A DNA stretch of 11,139 bases from Synergistaceae bacterium (GTDB lineage: Bacteria > Synergistota > Synergistia > Synergistales > Synergistaceae): contig JAAYEY010000068.1 of the NCBI GenBank assembly GCA_012728505.1, forward strand, positions 1-11,139. The letters run 5' to 3'. The position numbers were made by a program, and so were the translations under genes. Below the pieces are notes generated by a model that was given only the letters and a program-made list of their open reading frames with translations, ran no database searches and was not told the DNA's origin. Shown here one piece after another: positions 1 through 11,128 of the stretch. Numbering within the stretch: the first letter of the stretch is position 1; every line of letters starts with the position of its first letter.

Positions 1-1367
1 ACTTCTAGGAGGCTCGAGTATTCTTCATTTTCTAGATAGTTTCCGTCGAAGCAGGCGGTGCATATTTCTGATGCTGGAAGTCCTATCGCGTCTCTAAGTT
101 GATCGCAAGTCAGGTACTCCAGCGAATCTGCTTTCATTTTTCGGGATAGAGTCGGAATGTCCATCTGTGCTGCGGCGAGTTCGTCTGTACTCGGAGTGTC
201 TATTCCGTAATAACAGGGAAAACATATTGGGGGAGATGCTATGCGCAGGTTGACTTTTTTTGCGCCGTTCTCCCTTAACATGGATACGATCATTTCGGCA
301 GTTGTCCCCCTGACCAGCGAATCGTCTACCACGACAACCTCTTTGTCCCTGAAGACAGTTTGCTGAGGGTTAAGTTTTATCTTAACTCCGATGTCCCTAA
401 CTAACTGAGTCGGCTGTATGAAAGTTCTACCAACGTATCTGTTTCTCACGATCCCCATTTCGAAAGGAAGGCATGCTTTTTGCGCAAACCCAAGAGCAGC
501 CAGAGTCCCGCTGTCAGGCATGCCAGTAACCATAGAATTTCCGGGGACGTTTGATTCGGCGAGTTTGGCACCAAGTTCTTTTCTGGTTTTGTAGACAGAC
601 CTACCGTCTATAACACTGTCTGGACGCGCGAAATATACATATTCAAAAGAACAGTGGCACTTTCTTGACCCACCGAGAGGTAGTTTTCGGGAGATAATAC
701 CCCTTTTGTCGATTACCAGTACCTCTCCCGGCTCAACATCTCGGATTATCTCTGCTCCAAGTATGTCAAGCGCACATGATTCAGATGCCACATAAACGGT
801 ATCTCCCTTTCGTCCGATTATTAAAGGTCTAAAGCCCCACGGATCCCTTGCTGCTATAAGGCATCCGTCAAAGAGGACAGCAAGGCTGTATGCTCCCGTT
901 ACCTTTGCTAGCGATTTTTCAAGGGCTTCAAGCTGTACAACGCCGGGTTGATGAGCCATAAGTTGCAATATAGTCTCTGTGTCGGAAGATGTATGGAATA
1001 TGGCTCCTCTATTTTCAAGATAGCCGGTTAGTCCCTGGGCGTTTGTCAGATTGCCGTTATGAGCTATTGCGACAGGCCCCTGCGAATAGTTGGCGCCTAT
1101 AGGCTGACAATCCTCAATCGGGGTCTCTGTTGACGTCGCGTGTTTTACGTGACCTATGGCAGTTTCGGCATGAATCTGGGAAAGGCAGTTTTGACTAATC
1201 GCTTCGTGGACCAGTCCTTTACCCTTTTTGATATTGACGGCGCCTTCCTCAATCCAGGCTATCCCAGCAGAAAGCTGGCCTCTGTGCTGAAGAGCACAAA
1301 GACCAAGATAGACATCCTCCAGTACTGACGCGCCATTTATGCTGTAAGCGCCGAAAACTCCGGACAT
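1..1367 (-). CDS. purF: Amidophosphoribosyltransferase PurF (partial at C-terminus), atypical glutaminase domain
   Basis: PurF makes 5-phosphoribosylamine from PRPP and an amide nitrogen, the first step of de novo purine synthesis in the cytoplasm. I translated 455 codons from the ATG at 1367-1365; the frame is open to the left edge, so only the last few residues are missing. Seen: an N-terminal Ntn/GATase II domain with LQHRGQ (26-31), AHNGN (102-106, oxyanion Asn/Gly) and SSDTE (127-131). The phosphoribosyltransferase domain follows, with RNRYVGRTFIQPTQ (308-321) and the PRPP loop VVVVDDSLVRGTT (344-356). Candidate Fe-S ligands, as in the Bacillus-type enzyme, are C239, C385, C436 and C439. 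Odd: residue 2 is Ser (TCC, 1364-1362) in place of the catalytic Cys, and the normal GHVRYST motif reads GHVKHAT (72-78), so Arg is Lys. The ATG lies 2 nt after the purL stop, and no upstream in-frame start restores a Cys. PurF identity is very likely; glutamine-dependent activity is doubtful. Confidence 0.95.
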   Translation of the reverse strand, partial: MSGVFGAYSINGASVLEDVYLGLCALQHRGQLSAGIAWIEEGAVNIKKGKGLVHEAISQNCLSQIHAETAIGHVKHATSTETPIEDCQPIGANYSQGPVAIAHNGNLTNAQGLTGYLENRGAIFHTSSDTETILQLMAHQPGVVQLEALEKSLAKVTGAYSLAVLFDGCLIAARDPWGFRPLIIGRKGDTVYVASESCALDILGAEIIRDVEPGEVLVIDKRGIISRKLPLGGSRKCHCSFEYVYFARPDSVIDGRSVYKTRKELGAKLAESNVPGNSMVTGMPDSGTLAALGFAQKACLPFEMGIVRNRYVGRTFIQPTQLVRDIGVKIKLNPQQTVFRDKEVVVVDDSLVRGTTAEMIVSMLRENGAKKVNLRIASPPICFPCYYGIDTPSTDELAAAQMDIPTLSRKMKADSLEYLTCDQLRDAIGLPASEICTACFDGNYLENEEYSSLLE

Positions 1368-1369
1368 TT

Positions 1370-3523
1370 TTAGGAATTGCCCTCAGTGAAGGCCTTTTTA
1401 AGTATTGTTAGAGGGATATTAAAGAAACCCTCCCATTTAAAAGCGTCTCCACTAACTGTTCCTATCTTAACAAAGGGGAATCCCCCCCACATCTTTTCGA
1501 ATGTTTCTTTGTTAGCATCAGGCACTGCATAAATCGCACGAGCTCCGCCCTCTGAGAATAGGACTTCTTCATTGGAGCTGGAGGGTGCGAAATCTATACA
1601 AAAACCTTTGTCGGAAGCTATGGCTTCGTTCGCAAGAGCTGCTGCTAGACCTCCGCCAGCTATAGCTCGTGCTGAAGAGGCTATACCATCTGCGGCAGTC
1701 TTTAATGCCCTCTCTCTGAAAGCTTTTTCCTTTTTGTGATTAGGCTCGACTGTTTTGCCCGATGGCTTTCCCTCTTTCATGACCTGGTAGCGAGAAGCTC
1801 CCAGAGAACCACAAAGGTCTCCTACAAGGTAGAGAGAGTCGCCGGTCATTGCATTTCCGGAGACGAGACGTTTGCGTCTGTCTATAAGAAGTCCGGCTGT
1901 AACTACCAGAGGGGTCGGTTGTATCTGCCCGCTTGCAGTTTCGTTGTAGAGACTTACGTTGCCGGATACTACCGGACAGTCAAGACTACGGCATGTATCA
2001 GCAAGACCCTTTATACATTGTTCAAGTTCGTAGAATTTCTCTGGGGCTTCAGGGGATGCAAAGTTAAGACAGTTTGTCATACCTAGTACTTCTGCTCCCG
2101 CGATCCAGAGACCCCTCAGAGAGAGCGCCATTGTCTCTGCAGCTCCCATGTAAGGATCTGTCCAGCATTTATTTGGTTCTGCTTCCATAGTAAGGAGACA
2201 GGCCCTGTCTGTATCGGGCACTTCGACAACTGCAACCGGGTTTCCCGGTCCTGCTATTGTATGGAGTTGGACCATCGAGTCATACTGTTCCCAGATCTCA
2301 TGCTTGCTTCTTCCGTTGGCGCAGCTGATGACTGAAAGAAGATCTTTACCGGGATTGTTACATATAAGATTAGAACTGTTGAGAGATGCTCTTTCCTCCA
2401 TATTTGCAGGTTCTGCAGATGGCCAGAATATTTCAGGAGCATCTCCGAGGATCGATGTAGGAAGGTCTGCTATAAGCTCTCCTTTATCGTAGATTCTGTA
2501 TCTGTCTGGGTCAGTCATGACGCCGACTACCGCGCAGTCAAGATCGTAATGAGCGGCCATCGTGAATACCTGTTCTAGGTTTTCAGTTTCGACTATCAGC
2601 AACATACGTTCCTGTGACTCTGAAAGGAATATTTCCCATGGAGCCATACCTTCTTCTCGAAGGGGAATGTTTTCTACAGTAATGTCTATTCCGCATCCGC
2701 TCTTATGGGCTATTTCGCTTGAGGAAGATAGGATGCCCGCTGCTCCCATGTCTTGCATAGATGCGATAAGTTTTTCGGAAAGCAAGTCCATGCAGCAATC
2801 AATAAGTAGTTTTTCTTCAAAGGGGTCGCCTATCTGTATCTGAGGCTTGCTCGACTTGGCGTTCTCGTCAAGTTCACGGGAGGCGAAAGAAGCCCCGGCT
2901 ATCCCGTCACGACCTGTTTTTGAGCCTAAAATAACGGCAAGGTCTCCCTTTTTTGCTGTCTGCGAGCTTGCCATTTTATCGAGGCGCACGAAACCAGAAC
3001 TGAAAGCGTTTACTAAGGGGTTTTCATTGTAACAGGGGGAATAAAAAGTCTTTCCTCCAACGATTGGCACACCCACGGCATTGCCATATGCTCCTATCCC
3101 CTCAACTATACCCTTTGAGAGATTCTGGGTCTTTTTGAGGGAGGGATCGCCGAGAAAGAGCCCATCCATTGAAACAGAAGGTCTGGCTCCCATAGCTATT
3201 ATGTCCCTGATGATGCCCCCTACTCCTGTTGCAGCTCCCTGGAAAGGCGCTACCGCGGAAGGATGGTTGTGGCTCTCTGCTTTAAAAGCGAAGCCCCAGC
3301 CCTCTCCCATATCGACAACGCCGGCGTTCTCTCCTTGCCCCTGAAGGACATATTTACCCTCTGAAGGGTATGTCTTCAGAAGTCTTTTAGTCGACTTATA
3401 GCTGCAGTGTTCTGACCACATGACTCCTATCAGCTGAGTCTCAAGAAAGTTAGGTTCTCTTTCTAGAATTTTTATTATACGAATGTATTCTGATTCAGAA
3501 AGGCCTGCGCTTTTGAAATCCAT
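1370..3523 (-). CDS. purL: Phosphoribosylformylglycinamidine synthase subunit PurL
   Basis: PurL is the ATP-dependent synthetase subunit that converts FGAR to FGAM, using ammonia supplied by PurQ, with PurS holding the complex together. Seen: MWSEHCSYKS near the N-terminus (active-site His about residue 39), ESHNHPS (about 83-89) and GAATGVGGIIRD, then the second AIRS-like half with SGNVSLYNET. The start is set at the ATG at 3523-3521, giving 717 residues. This ATG overlaps the purQ stop as TGATG and has a GAGG ribosome site 9 nt upstream. It also yields an N-terminus like that of other small-form PurL proteins. A longer frame begins at 3568 (732 aa) but would overlap purQ by 46 nt, and its extra N-terminus (Arg/Tyr-rich) does not resemble the family. 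The length is normal for the small PurL that needs separate PurS and PurQ, as in Gram-positive bacteria and archaea. It is the third gene of the operon. Confidence 0.97.
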   Translation of the reverse strand: MDFKSAGLSESEYIRIIKILEREPNFLETQLIGVMWSEHCSYKSTKRLLKTYPSEGKYVLQGQGENAGVVDMGEGWGFAFKAESHNHPSAVAPFQGAATGVGGIIRDIIAMGARPSVSMDGLFLGDPSLKKTQNLSKGIVEGIGAYGNAVGVPIVGGKTFYSPCYNENPLVNAFSSGFVRLDKMASSQTAKKGDLAVILGSKTGRDGIAGASFASRELDENAKSSKPQIQIGDPFEEKLLIDCCMDLLSEKLIASMQDMGAAGILSSSSEIAHKSGCGIDITVENIPLREEGMAPWEIFLSESQERMLLIVETENLEQVFTMAAHYDLDCAVVGVMTDPDRYRIYDKGELIADLPTSILGDAPEIFWPSAEPANMEERASLNSSNLICNNPGKDLLSVISCANGRSKHEIWEQYDSMVQLHTIAGPGNPVAVVEVPDTDRACLLTMEAEPNKCWTDPYMGAAETMALSLRGLWIAGAEVLGMTNCLNFASPEAPEKFYELEQCIKGLADTCRSLDCPVVSGNVSLYNETASGQIQPTPLVVTAGLLIDRRKRLVSGNAMTGDSLYLVGDLCGSLGASRYQVMKEGKPSGKTVEPNHKKEKAFRERALKTAADGIASSARAIAGGGLAAALANEAIASDKGFCIDFAPSSSNEEVLFSEGGARAIYAVPDANKETFEKMWGGFPFVKIGTVSGDAFKWEGFFNIPLTILKKAFTEGNS

Positions 3524-4236
3524 CAGCATGTACCTCTTTCTGTAAAAGTTCTGGCGATTGAGTCCCAAAACCTATTGCCATCTGTACCGCCGTTAAGATG
3601 GGCAATAGTAGCACGTTCAGGGTGAGGCATCAGGCCTAATATATTGCCCTTCTCATTGCATATTCCGGCAATGCCGTTCAACGCCCCATTGGGCGCAAAT
3701 TCTGCACCCGCTTTTCCTGTTTCAGGGTCGGCGTATCTAAATACGACGCGGCCGGAGTCTTCAAGTTTCTTAAGTTCGCCTTCAGGAAGGAAAAAGAGCC
3801 CTTCGTGGTGAGCGATAGGGAACTGTAGAACCTCTTTATTATTTAGCTCTGAGGTAAATTTATTGTCCGTCTGTTCTACCCTAACATAGCATTCACGGCA
3901 GATAAAAGTAAGGGATGTATTTGGTAGGAGTGTGCCCGGAAGCATTTTAGTCTCTGTAAGTATCTGAAAACCGTTGCATATCCCTAGCAGCAATCCCCCT
4001 CTGTCAGCGTGTTCCCTGACGGCTTTGATGATGGGAGATCTGGCAGCTATTGCCCCGGAGCGGAGGTAATCTCCATATGAATATCCCCCAGGCAGAACTA
4101 CAAGATCGGGTTGTTCATCGAATTTCTCTTTTTCATGCCATACCATTTCCACTTTTATTTTTAGAGATTCTCTGATTGCCCTCTCAACATCTCTGTCACA
4201 ATTGCTACCGGGAAAGACTACGACAGCGGCCTTCAT
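3523..4236 (-). CDS. purQ: Phosphoribosylformylglycinamidine synthase, glutaminase subunit PurQ
   Basis: PurQ is the class I glutamine amidotransferase subunit of FGAM synthase; it hydrolyses glutamine and passes ammonia to PurL. Seen in the 237-residue protein: the N-terminal FPGSNCDRD (8-16), the PGGYSYGD loop (49-56), and the nucleophile elbow GICNGFQ with Cys87. HPE near the C-terminus (His205, Glu207) completes the triad. The length is usual for stand-alone PurQ. The start ATG overlaps the purS stop in an ATGA arrangement, and the stop overlaps the preferred purL start as TGATG, so the three subunits are probably translationally coupled. The intact triad here contrasts with the missing Cys in the downstream PurF. 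No oddities otherwise. Confidence 0.97.
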   Translation of the reverse strand: MKAAVVVFPGSNCDRDVERAIRESLKIKVEMVWHEKEKFDEQPDLVVLPGGYSYGDYLRSGAIAARSPIIKAVREHADRGGLLLGICNGFQILTETKMLPGTLLPNTSLTFICRECYVRVEQTDNKFTSELNNKEVLQFPIAHHEGLFFLPEGELKKLEDSGRVVFRYADPETGKAGAEFAPNGALNGIAGICNEKGNILGLMPHPERATIAHLNGGTDGNRFWDSIARTFTERGTC

Positions 4237-4490
4237 TGCCCTGCTTCCTTGACTGAAATATTGTAGGTTTCAACCAGATCGTTGCAGAGAAGATCGGAAC
4301 ACATAGATTCAAGATCTACTATTGCCTCTTTCTCTCCTGCAGCCTCAATTTTCATCCTTACTATTTTACCGACCCTTACCTCGCTAAGTCCCTTGTATCC
4401 AAGGCGAGTCAAAGTTTTTTCCACTGCTTTACCCTGTGTGTCGAGGACACCCTCGCGAGGTGTTATAAGAACTTCAGCCATAAAAATCAT
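4233..4490 (-). CDS. purS: Phosphoribosylformylglycinamidine synthase subunit PurS
   Basis: PurS is the small structural subunit that bridges PurQ and PurL in the three-part FGAM synthase. The 85-residue product matches the family in size and in its conserved stretch GVLDTQGKAVEKTLTRLGY followed by VRVGKIVRMKIE. First gene of the purine operon. The ATG at 4490 is chosen because an AAGGGGG ribosome site lies 8 nt upstream. A second in-frame ATG at 4481 would give a protein of 82 residues whose N-terminus fits the family slightly better, but it lies 17 nt from that site. A promoter 53 nt upstream drives the operon. Confidence 0.95.
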   Translation of the reverse strand: MIFMAEVLITPREGVLDTQGKAVEKTLTRLGYKGLSEVRVGKIVRMKIEAAGEKEAIVDLESMCSDLLCNDLVETYNISVKEAGQ

Positions 4491-4835: not shown

Positions 4836-6101
4836 ATGCAACTAAGAAAGCGTTCCATGATCGCGGTAGTTTTAGTTTTATCTCTTTCTTTAATGATCTG
4901 TGCATCTGCATTTGCAGCTGACAAGGTTATTAAGATTGGTGCTCTCTTCCCACTTACAGGGCCTGCTGCAGTCTCTGGACAGAACTGCGTTAATTCTGTT
5001 CTTGCGGCGGCAGATGTTATTAACATGAAGAACCCAGAAATTAATGCTCCCCTTGCTGCACAAGAAGGTCTCCTCAACGGCTATAAGATCGAAATAGTCA
5101 AGGCTGACCATCAGGGCAAACCTGATGTAGCAAAGTCTGAGGCCGAGCGTCTCTATAACCAGGAGAAAGTCTTTGCTATTATCGGATGCTACAACAGTTC
5201 CGCAACGAAACCGGCTAGCGCTGTGGCAGAACGTGCAAAGAAGATTTTCATGTGCGGCTGCTCTAGCTCTGCGGCACTAACAGAGCGTGGCTACAAATAT
5301 TTCTTCCGTCATGCGCCTACAGATGCCATTGAATCAGACGAATTTGTTGAGTATGTTGAGTATCTTAACAAAGAGAAGAAGGCTGGAATCAAGACACTTG
5401 GTCTGATTTATGAGAACACAGAATTTGGAAAGCACGCTGCTGAAGAGGCTCAAAGAGCTGCAAAAAAGGCAGGTCTCAAAATAGTCGCCAATGTTCCTTT
5501 CAACAACGGTGCAACGAACCTTAACAGTGAAGTTCAAACTCTGAAGGCCGCAAATCCTGATGCAGTATTTGGAGCAGCCCTCGGCGGAGACTACTCACTC
5601 TGGGTTCGTACAATGAAACAGGTCAATTGGCTCCCTAAGATAGCAATCAACTACTGCACCGGGTATCAGAACCCAGCAGTACAGAAAGAACTTGCAGCCG
5701 ATGGTGACTACTTCATGGGCGGAATGGGATACTCTCCTGCACTGGCAAAAGAGTTCATGCCTGAAGCAGTTAAGATCGAAAAGAAATACTACACACCCAG
5801 AAGCAACCAGGCTTTTGACAGCGACTCCATCCAGGAAGCTGTGATGCTGCTGGTTCTTGCACAGGCAATAGAAAAGGCTGGAGCAGTTGACACCGAAAAG
5901 GTCGCAGCGATACTCAGGACCGAATCGTTCCCGTCAGCGCTGTCCCTCAGCGGATCAGTTAAGTTCAATCCCGATGGACAGAACGCCAATGCGCTCAGCG
6001 TCATAACACAGATTAAGAATCTGGATTACAACACAGTTTTCCCACTTAAGTACAAGAAAGCAGATCCTGTGTTCCCCATGACCCCTTGGGATAAACGCTA
6101 G
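4836..6101 (+). CDS. livJ: Branched-chain amino-acid-type ABC transporter substrate-binding protein
   Basis: Extracytoplasmic receptor of a LIV/HAAT-family importer, which captures amino acids (probably branched-chain, possibly other amino acids or amides) and hands them to LivHM. The 421-residue protein begins with a Sec signal peptide: positive residues (RKR, 4-6), a hydrophobic stretch 8-22, then ASAFA before ADK, with likely cleavage after Ala27. Cys22 follows LMI, not a good lipobox, so a soluble periplasmic protein is more likely than a lipoprotein. The mature part opens with KIGALFPLTGPAAVSGQ (33-49), typical of type I periplasmic binding proteins. Ligand-pocket candidates are around GCYNSSATKPAS (117-128) and GCSSSAAL (141-148). 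It is somewhat longer than E. coli LivJ. It is the first gene of the operon, with a strong promoter and ribosome site. Substrate identity cannot be read from the sequence; the symbol is given by family and context. Confidence 0.92.
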   Translation: MQLRKRSMIAVVLVLSLSLMICASAFAADKVIKIGALFPLTGPAAVSGQNCVNSVLAAADVINMKNPEINAPLAAQEGLLNGYKIEIVKADHQGKPDVAKSEAERLYNQEKVFAIIGCYNSSATKPASAVAERAKKIFMCGCSSSAALTERGYKYFFRHAPTDAIESDEFVEYVEYLNKEKKAGIKTLGLIYENTEFGKHAAEEAQRAAKKAGLKIVANVPFNNGATNLNSEVQTLKAANPDAVFGAALGGDYSLWVRTMKQVNWLPKIAINYCTGYQNPAVQKELAADGDYFMGGMGYSPALAKEFMPEAVKIEKKYYTPRSNQAFDSDSIQEAVMLLVLAQAIEKAGAVDTEKVAAILRTESFPSALSLSGSVKFNPDGQNANALSVITQIKNLDYNTVFPLKYKKADPVFPMTPWDKR

Positions 6102-6125
6102 TCTGATTTACAGTTTAGGCGTTGT

Positions 6126-6157
6126 GAGGCGGGGTAATCAATCGCCCCGCCTCTTTT
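6126..6157 (+). terminator. Intra-operon terminator/attenuator hairpin between livJ and livH
   Basis: GAGGCGGGG (6126-6134) pairs perfectly with CCCCGCCTC (6145-6153) around a 10-base loop, and TTTT follows at 6154-6157. The stem is nine base pairs, mostly GC. It sits directly after livJ and just before the livH ribosome site. It probably ends a fraction of transcripts, or protects the livJ mRNA 3' end, so LivJ exceeds the other subunits. The short U run suggests partial termination. Confidence 0.75.
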
Positions 6158-6165
6158 AGGGAGGT
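6158..6165 (+). promoter_or_regulatory. Ribosome-binding site deciding the GTG start of livH
   Basis: AGGGAGGT lies 7 nt upstream of the GTG at 6173. It decides for that GTG start, since no ATG sits at a suitable distance. It directly abuts the U run of the preceding hairpin. Confidence 0.8.
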
Positions 6166-6172
6166 ATTTTTA

Positions 6173-7033
6173 GTGGATAACTTTGTTCAAGTATTGATAG
6201 ATGGGATCCTAAGCGGACTTTTATATGCTCTTGTTGCTGCAGGTCTCAGCTTGATGTGGGGAGTTATGGATGTTATAAACTTTGCCCACGGAGAATTTCT
6301 TATGGTTGCCATGTACCTTTGCTACTGGATAGGAGAAATCCTGGGAATAGATCCGCTTTTTTCTTGGATCGCCGGAGGTATATTCCTATTCTTTGTTGGA
6401 GCTTTAACATATAAGCTAATAATAAAAAACAGTCTTGGCAAAGCTGCGATGGCTCCTCTTCTCGCTACGTTCGGACTATCTATGCTCCTCAAAAATTTTT
6501 GTATGAACCGTTTTACTCCAAATTTCCGTTTGCTCTCCGGCACAATAATGGAAGGCAAGACATTCCAGTTTGCAGGAGCTATCGTCTCTGTGCCTCAGCT
6601 TGTAACGGCAATCTTTTCGCTTGTGGTGTTGCTTGGTGTTTACTGGCTCATCAAAAAGACGAGGGTTGGCTGGGCCATACAGGCGACGGCTATGGACAAA
6701 GAAGCAGCTGAACTTATGGGTATCGACACGGAAAATATTTATCTGCTCGTTTTTGGTATAGGAGGCGCCTGTGTTGGCGTAGCGGGCGGACTTATGACTA
6801 CATATCTTGCAGTACACCCAGAAGTTGGCAGCCTTTTCAGTTTGATTGCGTTTGTAGTAGTTGCGCTCGGTGGATTTGGAAGTATTCCGGGAGCACTATT
6901 TGCCGCGCTGCTGATTGGTCTGGTGGAATCCTTCACAGGTTTCTATGTGGCCGCGGTAGTAAAGTACGTGGCAGTTTTCGCGATATATCTTGTTGTGATT
7001 TTAATCAGACCTAAGGGTCTGTTTGGATGGTGA
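6173..7033 (+). CDS. livH: LIV-type ABC transporter permease LivH
   Basis: Inner-membrane permease of the amino-acid importer, pairing with LivM to form the channel. The 286-residue protein is hydrophobic throughout, with about eight membrane spans. It shows the LivH N-terminal signature: GLLYALVAAGLSLMWGVMDVINFAHGEF, given here in parts as GLLYALVAAGLSL and VINFAHGEF. A cytoplasmic loop contains AMDKEAAELMGID, the region expected to contact the ATPases. The C-terminal half has VVALGGFGSIPGALFAALLIG, the other conserved block (VVALGGFGS then PGAL). The end reads IRPKGLFGW, as in many family members. Start is GTG, supported by the strong ribosome site. The last 7 bases overlap livM. Nothing unusual. 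Confidence 0.95.
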   Translation: MDNFVQVLIDGILSGLLYALVAAGLSLMWGVMDVINFAHGEFLMVAMYLCYWIGEILGIDPLFSWIAGGIFLFFVGALTYKLIIKNSLGKAAMAPLLATFGLSMLLKNFCMNRFTPNFRLLSGTIMEGKTFQFAGAIVSVPQLVTAIFSLVVLLGVYWLIKKTRVGWAIQATAMDKEAAELMGIDTENIYLLVFGIGGACVGVAGGLMTTYLAVHPEVGSLFSLIAFVVVALGGFGSIPGALFAALLIGLVESFTGFYVAAVVKYVAVFAIYLVVILIRPKGLFGW

Positions 7034-8028
7034 CGGCGATGTTTAAGAATAAAGCAGACAAATTATGGTATGGTTTCTTGGCTGTCGCCGTAATATTGCC
7101 CTTTGTGCCAGGTGTAATCGGAGGTTCTTTTTTCGGACATGTGGCAACAATGATACTTCTCTACGCAGCGATGGCACAATCTTGGAATATTATTAGCGGA
7201 TACTGCGGCCAGACTTCATTTGGGCATTCGGTCTTCTTTGGGATCGGAGCCTATGGAGCGGCTTTGGCAGTCGTGAATTTTAACAGCCTTCCGTGGTATG
7301 GAGCACCGTTAGGCATGCTTGCCGCAGCGGTCGTATCTGTGATAATCAGCTATCCCTGTTTTAAGCTCAAGGGACACTATTTTGCGATAGCCACATTTGC
7401 GATAGTTGAAATCTTCAACCGACTATTCATGATTTGGGATAGGGTTGGAGGAGCTTTGGGACTAGACTATCCGATCCTTCCTGACGGCTGGAAAAACTTT
7501 TCATGGTCGGAGACAAAGAACGGATACTATCTCGGTGCTCTTGCGATATTCGTATTAGTCTTCAGCGTGGTTCGCTGGATAGAGAAAAACCGCATGGGCT
7601 ACTATCTCAAGGCGGTCCGTTCAGGACAGGAAACGGCAGAATCCCTTGGAGTTAATAGTACTTTTGTAAAACTTTCAGCGATGGCTCTTTCCGCGTCTTT
7701 GGCAGCGTTGTGCGGGGCTTTCTTTGCGCAGTATAATTATCGCGTTGACCCGCCTATGGTCATGTCTCTTGATATGTCGATGAAATTTGTGCTTATAACC
7801 ATACTTGGAGGTCTTGGGACATTCTGGGGCCCCTTACTCGGAGCATTGGTCCTAATACCGCTTCAGGAATACACCCGTGCATATCTTTCACATCTGGGAG
7901 CTGGGGTAGACCTTATAATCTTCGGTCTGATCATAATTATCGTTATGATCAAGCAGCCTCTCGGAATTATGGGGATTATCAGATACTTTACTAAAAGAAA
8001 AACTGCAAAGATAGAAGGTGACGCGTGA
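7027..8028 (+). CDS. livM: LIV-type ABC transporter permease LivM
   Basis: Second inner-membrane permease of the importer. The 333-residue hydrophobic protein has the LivM hallmarks: LLYAAMAQSWNIISGYCGQTSFGH near residues 44-67 (key residues N-I-S-G and G-Q-S-F-G-H), then KLKGHYFAIATFA, the loop block GYYLKAVRSGQETAESLGV, and ILGGLGTFWGPLLGA. It is shorter than E. coli LivM, lacking that protein's long N-terminal extension, which is common in other phyla. The ATG at 7027 overlaps the livH stop and has AAGGG 9 nt upstream. An ATG at 7039 is a less likely alternative. The stop overlaps the livG start as TGATG. Confidence 0.94.
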   Translation: MVTAMFKNKADKLWYGFLAVAVILPFVPGVIGGSFFGHVATMILLYAAMAQSWNIISGYCGQTSFGHSVFFGIGAYGAALAVVNFNSLPWYGAPLGMLAAAVVSVIISYPCFKLKGHYFAIATFAIVEIFNRLFMIWDRVGGALGLDYPILPDGWKNFSWSETKNGYYLGALAIFVLVFSVVRWIEKNRMGYYLKAVRSGQETAESLGVNSTFVKLSAMALSASLAALCGAFFAQYNYRVDPPMVMSLDMSMKFVLITILGGLGTFWGPLLGALVLIPLQEYTRAYLSHLGAGVDLIIFGLIIIIVMIKQPLGIMGIIRYFTKRKTAKIEGDA

Positions 8029-8801
8029 TGGCACTGCTTGAAGTCAGTAATCTAACGATGAAGTTCGGATCACTGGTTGCCAACAGCGATGTCTCCTTTA
8101 CTGTGGAAGAGGGGACCATAGTAGGCCTCATCGGACCTAACGGAGCAGGCAAGACGACTCTCTTTAACTGTGTGGCTGGACTCTACAAACCTGCAGAAGG
8201 AAAGGTTATGTTTGACGGGCGTGATGTTACGGGATTTCCTTCCTGGAAAATGGCACGACTTGGCCTGGGCAGAACTTTCCAGGTTGTCAGGCCTCTCAAA
8301 GAGATGACGGTTTATGAGAACATACTTGTGGGAGCTTACATGCGCCACAGTAGTACTTTAAAAGCAAATGAAGTGGCTGAACACTGTATGACACTCTGTT
8401 TTTTGGGAGATTTGAAGTATAAGTTGGCTGGAGGTCTTACCATAGGCAACAAGAAAAGGCTCGAGTTGGCGAGATCACTTGCAACAGGCCCTAAACTCCT
8501 CTTGCTGGACGAATCTGTCGCCGGTCTGACATCTACCGAAATTAAGGAAATGGTAGAAGTTATCGTCAGGCTAAAAAATGAGGGAGTCACCATACTGATG
8601 GTCGAACACATTATGGAAGCGATAATGCCAATAGCAGACAAAATTGTAGTTCTTGCGAGCGGCAAAAAAATCGCAGAAGATACCCCTCAGAAAGTTATCC
8701 ACGATCCGAACGTCAGTACAGCTTACTTTGGCGAAAAATTTGCAAAAAGACTTAGGGAATCTAAGGAGGGACAGTGTGATGTCAGCGATGCTAGAAGTTA
8801 A
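8028..8801 (+). CDS. livG: LIV-type ABC transporter ATP-binding protein LivG
   Basis: Cytoplasmic ATPase that, with LivF, powers the importer. Seen: Walker A GPNGAGKTT (about residues 36-44), Q-loop GRTFQVVRP, Walker B KLLLLDES with the catalytic Glu, D-loop-like AGLTSTE, and the H-loop His in VEHIMEA. The signature motif reads LTIGNKKRLELAR where family members usually have LSYGQQRRLEIAR, and the Walker B Pro (DEP) is Ser. The essential Gly, Asp, Glu and His remain, so activity is expected. The start is placed at the ATG at 8028, which overlaps the livM stop (TGATG) and has an AAGG site 9 nt upstream. The GTG at 8025 is the alternative and adds one residue. The 3' end overlaps livF by 23 nt. 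Confidence 0.94.
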   Translation: MALLEVSNLTMKFGSLVANSDVSFTVEEGTIVGLIGPNGAGKTTLFNCVAGLYKPAEGKVMFDGRDVTGFPSWKMARLGLGRTFQVVRPLKEMTVYENILVGAYMRHSSTLKANEVAEHCMTLCFLGDLKYKLAGGLTIGNKKRLELARSLATGPKLLLLDESVAGLTSTEIKEMVEVIVRLKNEGVTILMVEHIMEAIMPIADKIVVLASGKKIAEDTPQKVIHDPNVSTAYFGEKFAKRLRESKEGQCDVSDARS

Positions 8802-9492
8802 AAACATACACTGCGCCTACGACGGAGTACCTGTTATCCATGGAATATCTCTGGAAGTCGAAGAAGGTGAGCTGGTCGCAATAATAGGCGCGAACGGAGC
8901 GGGCAAAAGCACGACGATGAGGACGATTGCAGGACTCATGCATCCCGTGTCTGGTACCATCAGTTTCATGGGCGAAGATATATCAAATATGGGCGCTTCA
9001 AAAACTATCAAATTGGGAGTCAGTTATGTCCCTGAAGGACGCCGTCTTTTCTCAAAGCTGACAGTAAAAGAAAATCTTGAACTGGGCGCTTTTGCGACAA
9101 AAGACAGGAAAGTGATTAATGAGCGTCTTGAAGAGATGTATGATCTTTTCTCAATACTAAAAAACCGAAAAGATCAGATAGCCGAAACTTTGAGCGGAGG
9201 AGAGCAACAGATGTGCGCCATAGCTAGAGGGCTCATGTCAAAACCGAAGCTCCTCCTTCTCGATGAGCTCTCGCTTGGTCTTCAGCCCAGCCTTGTTGAA
9301 AGAGTTTTTGAGGCGGTAGCTGAAATCAATAAAAGGGGTGTAACTATCCTTTTAGTGGAGCAGATGGTTCAGGAAGCTTTAGAGATTGCAAAAAGAGGAT
9401 ATGTGGTGCAGACAGGCCGCATAGTCCACTCTGGTACTTCAAAAGAACTTCTGTGCTCAGAAGAAGTTCGTAAGGCTTATATGGGAATGTAG
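8779..9492 (+). CDS. livF: LIV-type ABC transporter ATP-binding protein LivF
   Basis: Second cytoplasmic ATPase of the importer, forming a heterodimer with LivG. The 237-residue protein has Walker A GANGAGKST, the Q-loop region VPEGRRLFSKLTV typical of LivF, the canonical signature LSGGEQQMCAIARGL, Walker B KLLLLDEL with the catalytic Glu, and the H-loop position occupied by Gln in LLVEQMVQEAL, which is normal for LivF. The start is the ATG at 8779, which has AAGGAGGG at 8763-8770, 8 nt upstream. The frame stays open upstream to a start codon at 8653, but that would overlap livG by about 150 nt and add unrelated residues. Last gene of the operon; a terminator follows. Confidence 0.95.
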   Translation: MSAMLEVKNIHCAYDGVPVIHGISLEVEEGELVAIIGANGAGKSTTMRTIAGLMHPVSGTISFMGEDISNMGASKTIKLGVSYVPEGRRLFSKLTVKENLELGAFATKDRKVINERLEEMYDLFSILKNRKDQIAETLSGGEQQMCAIARGLMSKPKLLLLDELSLGLQPSLVERVFEAVAEINKRGVTILLVEQMVQEALEIAKRGYVVQTGRIVHSGTSKELLCSEEVRKAYMGM

Positions 9493-9601: not shown

Positions 9602-11128
9602 TTAGAGCCAGGGATCTTTGAGAAGTTCCTTTGAAATCGTTGTCAGAGGTATAAGGTCGGATCTGTCTATATAGCCTAAGGAGAATTTCCTGTTGAGCGC
9701 CATCAGGAGACGAAGTCCAAATCCAATACGGTTAAGGTATGAAAAGAGACCGATTGAACCGGGTGAAAAATTCTTGGCATCCTTGCCGTAGAGAATATAT
9801 AGGTCCTGCATATCGTGGTATATCTCCTCTGCGGAGGAACCGAACTTTCTGACAGAAACAGGGATCTCCTGGTTTTCGATTCCTTCACCGACCATTTTGG
9901 AGAACATAGCGGCAGCCATTGGAGCTCTGCATACACCAACAAAAGAGATGTAGGGGGCTCCGAAGGCAAGACCCTTGAAAATGCTGTCTTCGAGAGAAAA
10001 ACCTCCCGTAATTGCGACGCCCGGCAGCTGTCTGCCACTTTTTTTCATCTTGTCCAATATGTCCCAGATGATGTTTTCAAGATAAATAGAGGGGAGTCCC
10101 CATTCGTTCATCATTTTACAAGGGCTATCTCCTGTGCCGCCTCCTGCACCATCAAAGGTAACGAGGTCTACTGATGCCTGTGATGCGATGTCGAGTGTGA
10201 GTTCTAGGTCTTTTCTGTTGTAGCCTCCGACCTTTATCATTATTCTCTTTGCGCCCATAGATCTAAGACCTTTTATATAGCTTACGAGGTCTTCAGATTT
10301 GTACATAGGCAGACGACCCATTACCCTAAATACGGGCTTATAACCGGAAGAGACAAGTTTCTGGATTTCTTCTGAGTCAGGATTGGGATAAACAAGGCGC
10401 CCTTTTACTTTAAGTCCCTTTGCCTCTTCAAATGATATTTTTTTAGAAACTGCTTGAATACCTTTTGCTGCTTGTCCCAACTTCAGTTCCACGCTCTTTA
10501 CATTTAGCTTTTCTATGGCGTACTCAAGAACCCCAAAGGAGACATCGTCGTAATTAGCCTGGAGAACTATATCTCCGTATCCTCTTTCATAAGCTCTAAA
10601 AGAAGAGAGCATCTCTTTAATAAGCGGCGAAGATGTGACCTTGCCGTTCGAAAATTCGACATTGCTGTCCTTGTTGATAACAGCCTCTCCAATAACTGCG
10701 CTAACTCCCCCCATTGCAGCTCCTGCGTAGTAGTCTTTCCAGTTCAGCTTGGCTACAGCAGGTAAAATCACTGGCAGCTTCTGCATGACCGGATTCATTA
10801 TACCCAGAGCACATGTAAGGTCTACGCTCAGAGGATGTGCTATATCAGAGTCTTCCGGTAGGCCATGTGCGCCAAAGACTCTGCCGTTTATGTTAAAATC
10901 AGAAAAATCGACAGGATACTTTTTCTCTGATGCGAACTGGCTTCCGTTGGGATTAGATGGGTATACCGCCTCTGTACCCCTTAGGGCTGAAAGTGCTATT
11001 TCACAAAGTGCAGGACACTCCTGAATACAATCGGAACACATCCCGGAACATGATGAATGGTTCGGGGTGCGTAGACGGGTTTCGTTAAACCCTGAGCTTA
11101 GATCTGGACTGTAGGACATTTTCATCAT
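9602..11128 (-). CDS. FMN-binding glutamate synthase-domain protein without glutaminase domain
   Basis: Relative of the FMN domain of the glutamate synthase large subunit, which in the full enzyme reduces 2-iminoglutarate to glutamate. Seen in 508 residues: an N-terminal Cys motif CSGMCSDCIQECPALC (27-42), suggesting an Fe-S cluster. A TIM-barrel-like region follows, with VELKLGQAAKG (213-223, like the family's EIKxxQGAKPG), FDGAGGGTGDSP (325-336, like GHDGGTGASP) and AITGGFSLEDSIFKGLAFGA (372-391). Missing: the N-terminal glutaminase domain, the C-terminal beta-helix domain, and the Cys triad that binds the 3Fe-4S cluster after the GGTG loop (only Cys400 lies near there). It could be an ammonia-using archaeal-type synthase, a subunit like MgsC of N-methylglutamate synthase, or an uncharacterised oxidoreductase. 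No partner gene is visible. Start codons at 11128, 11125 and 11119 are possible; AAAGG lies 6 nt before 11125. Confidence 0.85.
   Translation of the reverse strand: MMKMSYSPDLSSGFNETRLRTPNHSSCSGMCSDCIQECPALCEIALSALRGTEAVYPSNPNGSQFASEKKYPVDFSDFNINGRVFGAHGLPEDSDIAHPLSVDLTCALGIMNPVMQKLPVILPAVAKLNWKDYYAGAAMGGVSAVIGEAVINKDSNVEFSNGKVTSSPLIKEMLSSFRAYERGYGDIVLQANYDDVSFGVLEYAIEKLNVKSVELKLGQAAKGIQAVSKKISFEEAKGLKVKGRLVYPNPDSEEIQKLVSSGYKPVFRVMGRLPMYKSEDLVSYIKGLRSMGAKRIMIKVGGYNRKDLELTLDIASQASVDLVTFDGAGGGTGDSPCKMMNEWGLPSIYLENIIWDILDKMKKSGRQLPGVAITGGFSLEDSIFKGLAFGAPYISFVGVCRAPMAAAMFSKMVGEGIENQEIPVSVRKFGSSAEEIYHDMQDLYILYGKDAKNFSPGSIGLFSYLNRIGFGLRLLMALNRKFSLGYIDRSDLIPLTTISKELLKDPWL

Follow-up and report, generated by a model that had tools for sequence, protein, structure and literature searches.

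The stretch of DNA analysed here, 11,139 nucleotides of a Synergistaceae contig that we call the window, carries a run of purine biosynthesis genes on its minus strand: purS (4233..4490), purQ (3523..4236), purL (1370..3568) and purF (1..1367). PurS and PurQ exceed the cut-offs of curated models, and PurQ, the class I glutaminase subunit, keeps its Cys (LGICNGFQ). PurL, the FGAM synthase subunit, exceeds the cut-offs of NF002290 and TIGR01736, and its true start probably lies inside the listed open reading frame. PurF (amidophosphoribosyltransferase) catalyses the committed step of purine synthesis and is a textbook glutamine amidotransferase. The window purF, which we call copy A, opens at an ATG at 1367 and yields a 455-aa frame that runs off the contig one codon short of its end (the closest homologue, P0001, has 456 aa, one residue more). 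It scores 451.9 bits against the NCBIfam purF model TIGR01134, whose whole-protein cut-off is 350, and in the PDB its sequence is best matched by plant GPRAT2 (6lbp) and B. subtilis PurF (1ao0, 1gph). Outside the pur genes, positions 4836-9492 on the plus strand encode an ABC transporter of branched-chain amino acid or urea type (a binding protein, two permeases and two ATPases), for which the best NCBIfam models are Liv or Urt ones, the listed matches lying under their cut-offs. On the minus strand, positions 9602-11128 encode a 508-aa protein with a Cys-rich N terminus and a glutamate synthase conserved region (PF01645), besides which it has no Pfam match at 1e-3.

Copy A is like the PurF of E. 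coli and B. subtilis in its full length, its two domains, its PRPP loop and Fe-S Cys residues, and its place after purS-purQ-purL. The oxyanion pair Asn104-Gly105 (1053..1058, in the motif HNGNLT) is kept, and so by alignment is Asp129 (981..983), which we take to be Asp127 of E. coli. The PRPP loop VVDDSLVRGTTA (297..332, TSSDTE motif) is intact, as are Cys239 (651..653) and Cys385, Cys436 and Cys439 (215-213, 62-60 and 53-51, all features being on the minus strand), presumably the Fe-S ligands by analogy with B. subtilis PurF. It differs from these enzymes in three respects: it has no catalytic Cys, it has Lys for Arg73 (E. coli numbering), and its glutamine loop is altered. The gene begins ATG TCC GGA (Met-Ser-Gly), so that codon 2 (1362..1364) is a Ser codon where the genus relatives that were read have TGC. 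A wrongly chosen start that hides a Cys can be ruled out, since an in-frame stop lies five codons upstream and none of the five codons between it and the ATG encodes Cys. The loop, GHVKHATSTETP (codons 75-84 at 1116..1145), has Lys75 (AAA at 1145-1143) for Arg, His76 for Tyr, and Ser79-Thr80-Glu81 where canonical enzymes have Ala-Gly-Gly (or Gly-Ser/Gly-Glu). The preliminary description of this DNA had proposed Met-Ser-Gly for Met-Cys-Gly, Lys for the glutamine-binding Arg within a changed loop, a retained Asn104-Gly105 and Asp129, and intact phosphoribosyltransferase and Fe-S Cys positions; reading the residues and fixing the start confirms all of these. In E. coli, the carboxylate of a glutamine analogue is contacted by Arg73, and the wall of the channel includes Tyr74 (excerpt of PMC7953260); their equivalents in the window PurF are Lys and His.

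Could these substitutions be an artefact of assembly or sequencing? The window is a single contig of a metagenome-assembled genome (MAG), and the change from Cys to Ser needs one base. Sequencing error is made unlikely by P0001 (a cluster of five members), which lies on a 10,929-base contig, carries the same Ser, Lys and loop, and has Met for Ile at residue 10. We infer from the contig sizes (10,929 against 11,139 bases) and the one differing residue that P0001 is a second assembly of the window's species, and its independence hangs on those two points. Several codons of one site are altered together, moreover, and relatives display the same kind of loss separately, so that an artefact seems extremely improbable. 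The next match, P0002 (88% identity), has the canonical motifs MCG and GHVRYATAGE, and Cys is present in 119 of the 120 best matches to copy A (in P0012 it follows an N-terminal extension). The substitutions are also concentrated in the glutamine site. As a reference we took the 115 columns that are invariant among 71 canonical Synergistota PurFs (50 in the glutaminase half and 65 in the phosphoribosyltransferase, or PRT, half), leaving out copy A of G010 (L020), which looked degenerate. The window PurF departs from them at four (C2S, R75K, G80T and H373N), and three of these fall within 8 glutamine-site columns (hypergeometric P about 0.0009, for a site set that was literature-based and picked post hoc). 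When canonical PurFs were left out one at a time, departures averaged 0.21 per protein in the glutaminase half and 0.06 in the PRT half, and the highest glutaminase count, three in L149, included none in the glutamine site. Two other copy-A proteins have unusual glutamine sites with the Cys kept: that of G029 (L013) departs at Y76 and G49 and reads GHVRHVTEGE, and that of G010 (L020/L042) has LNGS for HNGN and, in L020, six invariant columns changed. These are perhaps early steps of the same loss.

The genome of the window is a MAG of 1.53 Mb in 271 contigs (89.4% complete, 1.0% contaminated). A single-sequence search and the purF HMM both find two PurFs in it, and GATase_6 matches nothing else there. 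The preliminary description had suggested looking for a second, canonical PurF. A second PurF (copy B, on contig C139) does exist, but it too begins Met-Ser-Gly; it is 58% identical to copy A and reads HDG where copy A reads HNG. Protein search, the purF HMM and GATase_6 turned up no Cys-bearing, canonical PurF anywhere in this genome; because the MAG is 89% complete, a third PurF could lie in the missing sequence. In relatives the gene order is purF_A - purC - purF_B - purM - purN, and since purF_A reaches the end of the window's contig (C125) and C139 starts inside purC, the two contigs are probably adjacent. The genome also has a glutamine synthetase family gene.

Reading the DNA of relatives (the window's genome not counted, and G078 outside the set) gave Cys in copy A in 19 of 19 and Ser in copy B in 20 of 20. 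A copy-B query returned, among the 120 matches listed, 82 with Ser at this position, 14 with Ala, 3 with Gly and 17 with Cys, the other 4 not covering the site. The oxyanion position is Asp in all 99 Cys-less matches and Asn in all 17 with Cys. At the position of Asp129 the 99 have Asn (53), Asp (31), Ser (14) or His (1), and 95 of them keep Arg75. In the PRPP loop all 99 keep the Asp, Asp, Ser, Arg and Gly, each Fe-S Cys is present in 97 or 98 of them, and copy-B dN/dS among genus relatives, for pairs with estimable dS only, is 0.03-0.09 in the glutaminase half and 0.02-0.04 in the PRT half. From the residue pattern, the kept PRPP loop and Fe-S Cys, and the low dN/dS, copy B appears to be a conserved PurF of long standing whose glutaminase is dead. 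The suggestion that Ser2 and Lys75 might co-occur across a clade is thus borne out for one residue and not the other: Ser2 is general in copy B, which mostly keeps Arg75, and Lys75 occurs once among the 120 copy-A matches, in P0001 of the same species. A contig titled Euryarchaeota archaeon (L034, JAKQBQ010000175.1) also holds a Synergistaceae purF_A/purF_B pair and is probably mislabelled or misbinned.

In a tree of 107 rows, built by a quick method with the active-site columns removed and including no crenarchaeal row, the copy-B clade is nested within Synergistota PurF. The tree requires three changes between Cys and non-Cys, a count that cannot separate gain from loss: one for copy B together with its Gly-bearing sister L062 (grouped at SH-aLRT 87), one for the Ala protein L056 and one for the window's species. 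Ser is encoded by TCC in the window copy A, one base from the TGC of the genus, and by AGT in copy B of the same genome, so the two Ser residues arose separately. Nor do the codons support gene conversion from copy B to copy A, with TCC in copy A, AGT in its own copy B and AGT or AGC in the copy B of five relatives.

Some genomes have a Cys-less PurF alone. With the purF HMM, G011, G013, G030, G060 and G061 each gave one PurF and one GlmS-like match, and a Cys-less PurF is the sole PurF in four genomes, G011, G013, G060 and G061. In G011 (96% complete) a single 132,743-base contig carries purS-purQ-purL followed by purC-purF_B-purM-purN-purH-purD-purE (purH, purD and purE assigned by NCBIfam), and the 459 AT-rich bases between purL and purC (L164:9056-9513) hold no detectable remnant of copy A; copy B of this genome also lacks the Arg, with AHVS for GHVR. 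The sole PurF of G061 (65% complete, the same contig data as G023) begins Met-Gly-Gly, has HDG and lies in the order purC-purL-purF-purM-purN, and that of G060 begins Met-Ala-Gly, retains HNG and lies in the order purL-purF-purM-purN. Compared with its sister L047, G060 is missing the canonical purC along with purS and purQ. A divergent, longer PurC-like protein (a frame of about 340 aa, 80 bits, under the purC cut-off) is the sole purC match in G060 (C3:101703-102395) and stands beside a canonical purC in G039 (C70:102964-103653). In G013 (100% complete) and G030 the sole PurF is a far relative with Gly.

This far relative belongs to a Gly1 PurF-like family found in Oscillospiraceae and in Synergistaceae genus g7 (L137, L138, P0241-P0360). 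Like the window PurF it has no catalytic Cys (Gly in 120 of the 120 listed, the 8000 candidates scored all having passed 1e-60); it differs in being about 30% identical, in missing the glutamine-loop region and in scoring 171.8 bits against the cut-off of 350. It is the only PurF found in G013, where it sits amid pur genes, and the few named records (Oscillospiraceae, Lawsonibacter) call it amidophosphoribosyltransferase. Loci L165:7475-8899 and L166:5741-7165 show its Met-Gly-Gly in place of Met-Cys-Gly.

Changes of a similar kind are seen in other glutaminases of nucleotide synthesis. PurQ (TIGR01737) is over the cut-off in 46 of 55 genomes, and the nine exceptions are of several sorts: in G003 and G006 the contigs end within purL's length of purF; G008 has no PurF match better than 5.8e-12; G013, G030, G037 and G046 match more weakly, within a frame of about 1,220 aa; G060 has no TIGR01737 match and G061 only two 20-bit ones. 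PurS is present in 26 of 28 genomes and absent only in G060 and G061. Since G061 is 65% complete and G060 is without the usual purC, these absences could partly reflect missing sequence or a decaying pathway. Among 33 distinct PurQ proteins (L208 was unparsed), 31 have the Cys nucleophile and two of one genus do not: G011 has Ser (L164:11664-12377, which still passes the PurQ model) and G029 has Ala, encoded by GCT (L167:11981-12700). The losses are therefore not strictly coupled, as copy A of G029 PurF keeps its Cys. That a Cys-less PurF goes universally with the absence of PurQ can be ruled out as well, since PurQ is intact in the window's genome and G013 has a PurQ domain that is fused to PurL and keeps its Cys.

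GuaA and PyrG were read in five genomes (those of the window, G011, G013, G060 and G061), all with a Cys-less PurF, and any co-loss of these enzymes is described for such genomes only. Aligned to E. coli 1gpm, the GuaA of G011 (L235:1453-3015) has Gly at the Cys position (GIGYGM), its PyrG (L231:565-2199) has Ser in alignment (GLSLGM), and both score above curated whole-protein cut-offs for 'glutamine-hydrolyzing' enzymes despite the loss of the nucleophile. All four nucleotide glutaminases found in this genome (PurF, PurQ, GuaA and PyrG) are thus without it; GlmS keeps its Cys there, as in G029, G004, G013 and G060, whereas the GlmS gene of G061 is truncated by its contig before residue 1. 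The PyrG of G061 has Gly (GIGLGM) and its GuaA retains the Cys. In G060 PyrG is intact and GuaA retains the Cys but has FLPE for FHPE, with Leu for what we take to be the triad His. In G013 PyrG (L233:1459-3093) retains the Cys, but Gln replaces the triad His (FQPE in place of FHPE), and the two PF00117 matches of this 100% complete genome include no GuaA glutaminase. In each of G011, G013, G060 and G061, then, one or more nucleotide-pathway glutaminases besides PurF are absent or changed. The window's genome has not lost its glutaminases generally: PurQ, GuaA and PyrG keep their Cys and an FHPE or PHPE motif, and only PurF is affected.

PurF proteins without the N-terminal Cys have precedents. 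In Crenarchaeota a Cys-less PurF' (many with Ala or Val) is encoded close to a canonical purF and to further genes of purine synthesis, Methanocorpusculum has a Cys-less paralogue with Ser (Mlab_0150), and the authors suggested, pending a test, that PurF' depends on ammonia (excerpt of PMC3261824). The missing Cys is the trait that PurF' has in common with both PurFs of the window's genome, a likeness in residues between proteins of different phyla. The setting differs too: the genomes with PurF' or Mlab_0150 also have a canonical PurF, as do 19 relatives of the window's species, but none was found in the window's genome, and in some relatives a Cys-less copy is the only one. A further precedent is man-made. 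E. coli PurF in which Cys1 is replaced by Ser or Ala has no detectable activity with glutamine and still uses ammonia (excerpt of PMC3261824, citing Mei and Zalkin); the change at residue 1 is the same, whereas that in the window is natural and comes with further changes in the glutamine site. The open-access titles and abstracts listed contained no report of a Cys-less PurF in Synergistota or of an ammonia test of PurF'. Relative to PurF', then, what appears to be new is the bacterial phylum, a canonical copy that is also without its nucleophile, a Cys-less enzyme that is alone in some genomes, and the decay of other glutaminases.

In canonical PurF the glutaminase domain frees ammonia, which is channelled to PRPP (excerpt of PMC7056826). 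The preliminary description offered a naturally ammonia-dependent PurF as one of its two readings, and this is the better supported, because no Cys-bearing PurF was found in the window's genome and relatives have a Cys-less PurF alone; the activity itself is predicted from residues. With the PRT half intact and the chemistry of the glutaminase half lost, we consider it likely that the window PurF depends on ammonia. The other reading was that Ser1 itself serves as the N-terminal nucleophile, as Ser does in some other Ntn hydrolases, in which case glutamine or another amide might still be used slowly. Coming directly after the initiator Met, Ser would be exposed, it is found in 82 of 96 rows of the B clade, and copy A retains Asn104-Gly105 and Asp129. 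Yet such a nucleophile is quite unlikely given that Ser1 left E. coli PurF without detectable glutamine activity (excerpt of PMC3261824). Arg75 and Gly80 are changed as well. All 96 rows of the B clade carry Asp where the oxyanion Asn would be, and 14 of them carry an Ala that is incapable of acting as a nucleophile.

Copy A of the window's species might instead be drifting towards a pseudogene, leaving copy B alone to make phosphoribosylamine. Since diverging from P0002 it has a branch of 0.10, about twice as long as the 0.055 of P0002, H373 is lost in the PRT half, and relatives with a sole B copy exist. Against this, the frame is open, the PRPP-loop and Fe-S residues are kept, one of the 65 invariant PRT columns is changed, and dN/dS is low: 0.04-0.08 in the glutaminase half in four of five pairs with estimable dS, and 0.02-0.05 in the PRT half in two of five pairs, the remainder being saturated and most dS values in these comparisons being close to saturation. 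Nor was relaxed selection seen over the whole glutaminase half: the ratio of glutaminase to PRT dN (0.67-0.92 for the window copy A in five pairs) falls inside the range of 10 other copy-A pairs (0.33-1.22), dS being near saturation and in several pairs undefined. We therefore regard pseudogene decay as unlikely. A mixed oligomer of copies A and B, with a dead copy serving for regulation or as a scaffold and the nitrogen supplied by another glutaminase, is very improbable. The genes are close neighbours and both are conserved across the clade, but B occurs alone in G011, and in the window's species both copies are Cys-less, so that neither subunit would be expected to split glutamine.

An ammonia-dependent PurF in the window's species probably came about as follows. 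The locus would descend from an old tandem pair, purF_A - purC - purF_B, of which the window gene is the canonical copy A. Copy B would have lost its glutaminase early, with Cys giving way to Ser or Ala and the oxyanion Asn to Asp, and would have been under purifying selection since. Later, and independently, copy A of the window's species would have lost the Cys, the Arg that binds glutamine and the Gly of the loop, presumably leaving the species with no detectable glutamine-dependent PurF. Phosphoribosylamine would then most likely be made from PRPP and free ammonia, with both copies taking ammonia from solution, and the glutaminase domain would probably be retained for fold, assembly or regulation. 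Synergistota live by fermenting amino acids (excerpt of PMC12366334), and high ammonia from this fermentation is a likely permissive condition, if enough of it is present in the cell. In some relatives the same drift has probably extended to other glutaminases of nucleotide synthesis.

On balance we lean towards a broader proposal, that nucleotide synthesis in Synergistota has repeatedly shifted from glutamine to free ammonia through serial loss of glutaminases across unrelated enzyme classes: an ancient second PurF with a dead glutaminase, the canonical PurF in the window, the disappearance of that copy in G011, the loss of PurQ and PurS in G060 and G061, and losses of the nucleophile or triad in PurQ, GMP synthase and CTP synthase. 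If this is true, the nitrogen donor of core pathways would be tied to an ammonia-rich niche. Bacteria with an apparently sole Cys-less PurF and decayed glutaminases would also let the 2011 proposal of ammonia use by PurF' be tested, and automatic labels such as 'glutamine-hydrolyzing' conceal losses of this kind. A separate observation concerns G024, where contig C78 carries two purF genes (18774-20114 and 46307-47647) of equal score and identity in opposite orientation, with a purQ near each; either the pur operon is duplicated there in inverted orientation or the assembly produced the pattern.
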